The position numbers and the translations under genes were made by a program. Below are positions 32,708-33,576 of a DNA stretch of 59,625 bases, piece by piece. Origin of the DNA: Gracilinema caldarium (GTDB lineage: Bacteria; Spirochaetota; Spirochaetia; Treponematales; Breznakiellaceae); contig NZ_JAJUHW010000015.1 in the NCBI RefSeq assembly GCF_029265695.1, positions 1 through 59,625 on the forward strand, read 5' to 3'. Position 1 is the first letter of the stretch. Each line of letters begins with the position of its first letter. The notes under the pieces are model-generated. The model was not told where the DNA came from. It saw only the letters and a program-made list of their open reading frames with translations, and did not search any database.

Positions 32708-32890
32708 ATGAATGTAAAAGTCGAACCCCATCGCTGTCCGCAAAATCATCCCTGTCCGGTGGTTCGGGTCTGCCCAACCGGAGCGATCCGGCAACGCGGT
32801 TATGCAGCCCCTGAAATAGATAAAGCCAAATGCATCAACTGCGGCCGTTGTATTCGCTATTGCGGGTTCGGTGCAATTCGAAGTGCCTAA
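32708..32890 (+). CDS. Small 4Fe-4S ferredoxin-like protein
   Basis: 60 residues, from ATG 32708 with AGGAGG 11 bp upstream. The N-terminal part has CPQNHPCPVVRVCPTGAI, the C-terminal part CINCGRCIRYCGFGAI. That gives two half-sites resembling a 2[4Fe-4S] ferredoxin with unusual spacing in the first cluster and Gly instead of Pro after the last Cys. It shares the divergent intergenic region with the NapH-like gene. Its 3' end overlaps by 4 bp the convergent 184-codon frame. Confidence 0.82.
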   Translation: MNVKVEPHRCPQNHPCPVVRVCPTGAIRQRGYAAPEIDKAKCINCGRCIRYCGFGAIRSA

Positions 32891-33441
32891 AAGAGCAGGC
32901 TGAGGCTAAAGGCGGCCCAGCCGGAAAGGGCCAGAGTCCCGGCTATGATGACAAGGAGCCGGGACCGGTTACGGGACTGTTCCAGCCTGTTCAGCTCCTG
33001 CTCCGCCGCTTGTTTGTACTCGCTGAAGGATTGTTCCAAGCTCTTCAAGGAGTTTTCCGTTTTCTGCAAGGAGTCCTTCAGCTGTGTCGATTCCTCGAGC
33101 GATATCTGTACATGTTGTCTGAGCTCTATCGAGCTGGTCTGCAATGCTTCCAGTTCTATCCGCAGCATTTCGAGCTCGGTTTTCGATTCGGTAAGCCTGT
33201 TCTCTAATGCAGATGAGTTCTTCCTGGAGTTTTCCAGCTCGTTCCTGAGCATCTCGTTGAGCCTTCCGAGCCGTGTCGAGATCTCGGTAAGCCGCAAGAG
33301 CTCGCTCTCTAAGTTCTTCCCGGTCACTGCTGGTTCTTCGCCAAAAATAAAAGCCCGCGGCCAGAACACCAACCATACAACCGACAATAAAAGCGGCAAC
33401 AACCTGTTTATGAACCTGTAGCATCGTTTTTTTTCCTGCAT
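32887..33441 (-). CDS. Coiled-coil membrane protein (long frame of an overlapping pair)
   Basis: 184 codons. The N-terminal hydrophobic stretch (FINRLLPLLLSVVWLVFWPRA) is followed by about 110 residues of clear heptad coiled coil rich in Glu and Leu (from LESELLRLTEISTRLGRLNE onward). It ends with a transmembrane segment (LLVIIAGTLALSGWAAFSLS). The regular leucine heptads and the GC-rich third positions suggest a real gene. However, no Shine-Dalgarno precedes the ATG at 33441, and a second open frame (32969-33424) covers most of it on the same strand. An A8 run at the start could allow slippage between the frames. No family recognised. Confidence 0.6.
   Translation of the reverse strand: MQEKKRCYRFINRLLPLLLSVVWLVFWPRAFIFGEEPAVTGKNLESELLRLTEISTRLGRLNEMLRNELENSRKNSSALENRLTESKTELEMLRIELEALQTSSIELRQHVQISLEESTQLKDSLQKTENSLKSLEQSFSEYKQAAEQELNRLEQSRNRSRLLVIIAGTLALSGWAAFSLSLLF
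32969..33424 (-). CDS. Second overlapping frame, signal-anchored helical protein
   Basis: 151 codons lying inside the 184-codon frame in another register. It starts at an ATG with AGGA 9 bp upstream, a better ribosome site than the longer frame has. The product would have an N-terminal anchor (VVAAFIVGCMVGVLAAGFYF) and a helical region (around ARKAQRDAQERAGKLQEELI and LLAENGKLLEELGTILQRVQ). Codon use is unlike its neighbours: many CGA and GCT codons, which arise when GAG-CTC heptad codons are read one base off. So it may be a by-product of the other frame, or a true overprinted gene. Confidence 0.4.
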   Translation of the reverse strand: MLQVHKQVVAAFIVGCMVGVLAAGFYFWRRTSSDREELRERALAAYRDLDTARKAQRDAQERAGKLQEELICIREQAYRIENRARNAADRTGSIADQLDRAQTTCTDIARGIDTAEGLLAENGKLLEELGTILQRVQTSGGAGAEQAGTVP

Positions 33442-33576
33442 AGAATTAAGTCAGTGTACACCGGGGATTAAAAAAACGTCAAAGATTTAATAGAAAATTA
33501 GTACTATAGGCAGGAATTTTTTTCTATTTTGCGTTACTATGTATCTATACGGATGTATGGCTGAGGAGGAGTGCCC

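Follow-up and report, generated by a model that had tools for sequence, protein, structure and literature searches.

The closest described counterparts of the gene pair presented here are the two-component spanins of phages. In these, embedded o-spanins mostly start at 0.4–0.5 of the i-spanin, the −1 register that we report below is also found in 116 known pairs, and a type I i-spanin is named as no more than a possible topology (Kongari et al. 2018; PMC6139136). In the literature that we searched we found no account of the means by which phages breach the outer membrane of spirochaetes, and the main text of a 2024 survey of 38 Treponema prophages makes no mention of lysis, holin, endolysin or spanin. 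Here we describe two long frames, A and B, which overlap on one strand of a 59,625-nucleotide stretch of a Gracilinema caldarium contig (hereinafter the window). We consider it reasonably probable that both frames are real and that the pair belongs, as a chromosomal copy, to a spirochaete family of phage-related, overprinted lysis pairs, which is spanin-like in phages. The family offers a candidate for the phage disruption of the spirochaete outer membrane and also a candidate type I i-spanin.

Two frames on one strand of the window

The coordinates and lengths given for the two frames in the preliminary description (184 and 151 codons overlapping over 456 bp) proved correct. The features of the locus are as follows:

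33441..32887, minus strand: frame A, 184 aa, running from a signal peptide through a long coiled coil to a C-terminal transmembrane (TM) helix
33424..32969, minus strand: frame B, 151 aa and 456 bp with its stop codon, lying completely inside A
33340..33441, minus strand: signal peptide of A, residues 1–34, with probable cleavage between FG and EEP, read from the sequence
32893..32961, minus strand: C-terminal TM helix of A, about residues 161–183, past the stop of B
33341..33403, minus strand: N-terminal TM helix of B, about residues 8–28, VVAAFIVGCMVGVLAAGFYFW
33434..33437, minus strand: AGGA, a putative ribosome-binding site for B located 9 nt 5′ of its ATG
33427..33434, minus strand: A8 run between the starts of A and B
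33453..33482, minus strand: putative sigma-70 promoter TTGACG-18-TACACT, ending about 11 nt before the ATG of A

B is read in the +2 (−1) register relative to A, such that position 1 of its codons is position 3 of A and its wobble position is position 2 of A. The G-EEP at the cleavage site of A is kept in four congeners. The sequence bore out the AGGA 9 bp before the ATG of B and the lack of a Shine-Dalgarno sequence before the start of A in the window. The sigma-70-like site is kept in G002 and has a similar form in G003. Because it is a consensus match, with one found as against 0.8 expected by chance in shuffled sequences, we can only infer from it that a transcript would begin a few bases 5′ of the ATG of A, giving A a near-leaderless start. 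At the other end of the locus, the stop of A and that of a small ferredoxin gene on the plus strand (32708–32890) overlap tail to tail at 32887–32890. An antisense, Ser-rich ORF of 158 aa (32945–33421, plus strand) also runs through the region; similar antisense ORFs occur in several relatives and are probably forced by the coiled-coil codons.

Homologues and dual coding

Searched separately against 59 genomes, the two frames found the same places, namely three congeners, G034 from the same family, and G038 and G041 from the same order. Profile searches gave 16 chromosomal loci in the Treponematales that lack lysis neighbors, the window's copy included, and about 18 divergent copies on phage or prophage-like loci. 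Several of the genomes are metagenome bins, and for the most divergent phage copies homology is suggested by modest profile scores together with the common geometry. The pair recurs in the same register across the Spirochaetia: in all of the first 19 loci B lies in the +2 register, with its stop 70–100 nt before that of A, and the phage pairs found later have the same register. The family format comprises an A protein in which a long coiled coil lies between a signal peptide and a C-terminal TM helix, and a B protein with an N-terminal TM helix or lipobox followed by a coiled coil; the hydrophobic ends of A are present in all homologues, and the N-terminal hydrophobic anchor of B is always present. 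In most loci, the start of B is offset from that of A by +2 (ATGTG/GTGTG), −4 ([AG]TGAATG) or +5, with values of +17 or +11 in the window's genus.

Some candidates were discarded. A match in G049 has three in-frame stops, and most of the extra matches examined from a phylum-wide B profile are ATP synthase b subunits or YtxH-like proteins. An apparent in-frame TAG of B in G041 coincides in position with the stop codon that ends B, and the profile search found none. The INPHARED phages gave no match to A and B of the window or of a Treponema prophage, and scans of viral contigs with B of the window and of the G091 and G248 phages gave none that was confirmed.

Comparisons across these loci strongly support both frames as real, conserved genes under purifying selection, and we regard the dual coding of the window's copy as almost certain. 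The preliminary description had suggested an overprinted gene pair and proposed asking in which frame synonymous changes dominate. Among the congeners, synonymous change in A is lowered within the overlap and released after the stop of B, while change at position 2 of A (the wobble position of B) is raised. Thus, G000 and G001 differ over the 122 overlap codons at 15/23/31 sites of A positions 1/2/3, with 20 of the 90 same-residue codons changed, as compared to 7/1/20 and 16 of 20 in the 27 codons past the stop of B (Fisher 2e-6). Neighboring genes show about 0.22/0.10/0.54 changes per codon position, and 0.44–0.59 of their same-residue codons are changed, from which the 20 of 90 in the overlap departs with P of about 2e-9; outside B, A evolves as an ordinary single gene. 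The contrast between overlap and tail is seen again for G001–G003 (Fisher 4e-4) and G000–G002 (0.01); for G000–G003 it has P 0.25, the tail being too small, and the overlap is still below the neighbors (2e-5).

Evidence from the B frame agrees. The +1 frame of A has 3–13 stops in each of the 19 loci counted, and B is uninterrupted in each of the 34 homologous loci tested, where stops in relatives would have spoken against a pair. Shuffling the synonymous codons of A keeps B open in only 1.6–2.3% of cases for the window sequence and seldom does so in most loci, yet B is open in all of them. In the window, the N-terminal anchor of B is more hydrophobic than A alone would force (P = 0.0025), with 0 of 2000 shuffles both open and as hydrophobic; it exceeds the A-forced value in most loci, three having given no result as the measured stretch fell upstream of the start. 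Finally, in all 45 between-genus comparisons (ten genera, mean z 5.3) the B proteins are more similar to each other than A forces, the real value lying above every one of 400 A-preserving shuffles.

These results bear on two simpler explanations of the locus. That only A is a gene, with the open frame of B forced by the codon bias of its coiled coil, draws on the heptad codons of A (GAG, CTC, CGA and GCT), which push the +2 frame towards Arg, Ala, Glu and Leu with few stops, and on the single-locus probability of an open B, which is not always low (two phage copies give about 0.49). We nevertheless find it very improbable, given the suppression of synonymous change in A up to the stop of B and its release beyond, the raised change at position 2 of A, the openness and the excess similarity of B across loci, the adjoining starts, the retained anchor of B and the lipobox on B in Treponema. 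The earlier suggestion that B arises merely from reading GAG-CTC heptads off register is insufficient in view of the excess similarity of B, and a chance frame for B is rejected on the tests of overlap selection, codon shuffling, B similarity and the B anchor. The A8 run does lie near the starts, as first described, and it is present between them in the window and G002, which might suggest programmed slippage giving one product fused from both frames. This we hold to be more improbable still, since the run is absent from the congeners G001 and G003; moreover, across the family each frame has a start codon to itself, and B closes with a stop of its own.

Phage lysis neighborhoods and chromosomal copies

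Most phage copies come directly after an endolysin gene (M23, M15, CHAP or C39-like), a holin-like gene or both, the holin calls in several loci being made from TM content alone. In L081 of G091, a Mu-like prophage (portal E = 1.5e-60, Phage_Mu_F, terminase E = 4.5e-84), an M23-like protein and a 77-aa TM protein precede the pair, which is followed by a DUF2730-like protein, the small terminase, the terminase and the portal; the order in G619 is similar. L080 of G072, with a tail J protein (E = 8.7e-67), has an M23-like protein, an 86-aa TM protein and then the pair. The endolysin candidates of L080 and L081 show M23-like motifs with no Pfam match, their nearest PDB sequence being a Peptidase M23 (E = 0.028). 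The pair is also borne by viral contigs, namely the IMG/VR contig L125, where it comes after a C39-like peptidase and a 118-aa TM protein, and L205/L206, with a CHAP domain beside it in L206 (9e-11). In the prophages L126 and L127 a TM protein lies directly before the pair and terminases after it. Peptidase_M23 (2e-17) is directly upstream of the pair in G086, and Peptidase_M15_4 (2.4e-6), CHAP (5e-11) and Phage_holin_5_2 (1.5e-8; PHROG holin 1.2e-9) lie beside it in G161, G151 and G608, respectively. Candidate loci in G756, G811 and G816 have no clear phage neighbor within the stretch examined.

The pair thus has endolysins and holins of unrelated kinds for neighbors, which is how a third lysis function behaves. 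The likeness to nested spanins had been proposed "in geometry only"; this was too cautious, as divergent homologues in phage cassettes of endolysin, holin and pair make a functional likeness probable. From this context, a spanin role for the phage copies appears likely. One point against such a reading of the pair is a second N-anchored coiled-coil ORF (DUF2730-like) that follows it in Mu-like prophages (L127 5354–5731, L081 5573–5953, L209 2827–3252) and, in L127, weakly matches the Rz-like spanin family phrog_6197 (E = 2.6e-5).

Copy number varies among genomes. G120 (contigs C224, C11, C99, C204 and C64) and G204 (C47, C28 and C72) each hold several full and partial or decayed copies, one of which has an internal deletion that breaks frame A, and some of which adjoin a gene for a large surface-type protein. 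Single-contig Treponema-type genomes carry two and up to four prophage copies (L191 and L204 of G161; L192/L193 of G151).

The chromosomal copies, whose neighbors were named by reading translations, lie in other settings, amid housekeeping genes that differ from place to place. In the window's genus these are ferredoxin and TPR lipoprotein genes with no lysis cassette, and neither CHAP nor a Hol44 holin was found in four congeners; elsewhere the neighbors vary between rnhB/PUR (G038, G041 and G076), era and lipB-like genes (G189), and an ABC transporter (G326). The window's genome additionally has two Mu-like prophages (L209 3180–3983, contig C74; L210 3038–3805, contig C13), in whose lysis region a C39-like peptidase and a holin-like TM protein are followed by a 111-aa N-anchored ORF and a partner of about 123 aa with a signal peptide and a C-terminal TM helix, the two sharing about 160 nt in the relative register seen for the family. 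The family profiles did not detect these pairs as homologues; they may represent the same pair in an overlapped-class form or have arisen by convergence, and they support the two-topology format while being no proof of it.

Predicted topology, proposed function and known systems

AlphaFold2 models A of the window as helices at residues 3–30 (the signal) and 40–183 (pLDDT 85), and B as a single helix at residues 2–142 with a disordered C-terminal tail (pLDDT 84.5). From the predicted parts, A would be a type I (N-out) protein and B type II or a lipoprotein, with both window proteins predicted to be anchored in the inner membrane. Neither of the two matches the PS51257 lipobox pattern, the near-lipobox IVGC of B included. 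Across the family, PS51257 is matched by B in G086, G161, G151 and L125, and a lipobox is seen by eye in L205/L206; most other B proteins have a plain hydrophobic helix outside the pattern, and A matches it only in G248p and G034. As the lipobox is absent from most A proteins and from most B proteins outside the Treponema prophages, many members, the window's among them, are without the outer-membrane anchor by which spanins are defined. Profile searches of the PDB with the family returned generic coiled coils only, and neither Pfam nor PHROGs has a family for A or B. B weakly matches several Rz-like spanin families of PHROG, which could reflect coiled-coil similarity.

Two further alternatives concern the role and the origin of the pair. 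The prediction that in many members both proteins are anchored in the inner membrane, with no lipobox, would suit some other late phage role, such as an antiholin, superinfection exclusion or lysis timing, rather than disruption of the outer membrane. We deem this unlikely, in that there are always two long, probably periplasmic helices after holin/endolysin, and the lipobox on one partner in the Treponema prophages is exactly what the i-/o-spanin topology requires. As for origin, the chromosomal copies cluster according to the genus and family of their hosts, a pattern consistent with a single capture followed by vertical inheritance and at least one possible exchange with phages. This host-wise grouping, along with the phage copies G072p and L125 that nest within the chromosomal clade of the B tree, could be expected of an ordinary host envelope gene pair captured by phages instead of a phage lysis gene kept by the host. 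We give that converse origin a similarly low probability, for the A tree unites the 16 chromosomal copies in one clade (91/89) with the phage copies outside, and the phage copies show much greater diversity, occur across many families and lie in lysis cassettes with differing endolysins. The window's copy is likely to be related to the phage pairs.

Returning to the lysis-pair reading, dual coding, conservation, register and the lysis-cassette context of the phage relatives are shown by the sequence, whereas a spanin activity, an antiparallel pairing and a host function are what we infer. The phage pairs are probably two-component spanins in which A is a type I i-spanin and the starts lie 2–5 nt apart. 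We posit that one mRNA with nearly coincident starts would yield both proteins, which in phages would act after holin and endolysin: B, a lipoprotein or N-anchored, and A, secreted with a C-terminal inner-membrane anchor, would associate by way of their coiled coils in the periplasm and bring about disruption or fusion of the outer membrane. The helices might pair antiparallel near the membrane, which is possible because the anchor of A is C-terminal and that of B N-terminal. The window's pair would be phage-derived (or phage-exchanged) and fixed on the Treponematales chromosome without lysis neighbors, as an exapted or orphan spanin-like pair. Since an inner-membrane anchor is predicted for each of its proteins, it has probably been exapted to serve the envelope in some way, for instance in tethering across the periplasm, in vesiculation, or in the lysis in trans of a prophage or a gene transfer agent; our best guess for its host role is an exapted envelope tether or fusion factor. 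On the broader proposal, namely a distinct spirochaete-phage spanin class (near end-to-end overprint, coincident starts, type I partner and, on the other partner, an anchor in which lipid and helix are interchangeable), one lineage of which was domesticated as a vertically inherited host envelope pair under dual selection, we are evenly divided.

The family is an extreme case of same-strand overprinting, in that two long membrane proteins have nearly all their coding DNA in common and keep their register across a bacterial class, and gene callers biased against overlap will tend to miss one of both genes. Its chromosomal copies offer a testable case of a phage lysis module retained by hosts.

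Among known systems, the Mu-like prophage lysis region, as seen in G091 and similarly in G619, places the pair between endolysin and holin-like genes on one side and DUF2730-like, small terminase, terminase and portal genes on the other, although the pair itself has no name in Pfam or PHROGs. Like the u-spanin gp11 of T1, A combines an export signal at its N-terminus with a C-terminal TM helix, and in G248p it even has a lipobox; however, gp11 acts alone, whereas A has an overprinted partner and is mostly devoid of a lipobox. A of the window lacks the N-terminal lipobox that accompanies the C-terminal TM domain of a unimolecular spanin. A also departs from type II i-spanins, which have an N-terminal TM domain, through its signal peptide, C-terminal TM helix and predicted type I topology. 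With Rz/Rz1 of lambda and the embedded and overlapped classes, the family has in common two small envelope proteins from overlapping frames on one strand, coiled-coil periplasmic domains, a place after holin and endolysin in phages, and, in the Treponema prophages, one partner that is a predicted lipoprotein. There, B would occupy the o-spanin position and A that of the proposed i-spanin-like partner, an arrangement that fits the possibility raised by Kongari et al. 2018. In contrast to Rz/Rz1, the spirochaete starts lie within 2–5 nt of each other in most loci, each partner is a long helix, A as the inner-membrane partner has a type I topology and is anchored at its C-terminus, many members have no lipobox, and chromosomal orphan copies exist. 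The two genes overlap more fully than those of known spanins, from which they also differ in topology.
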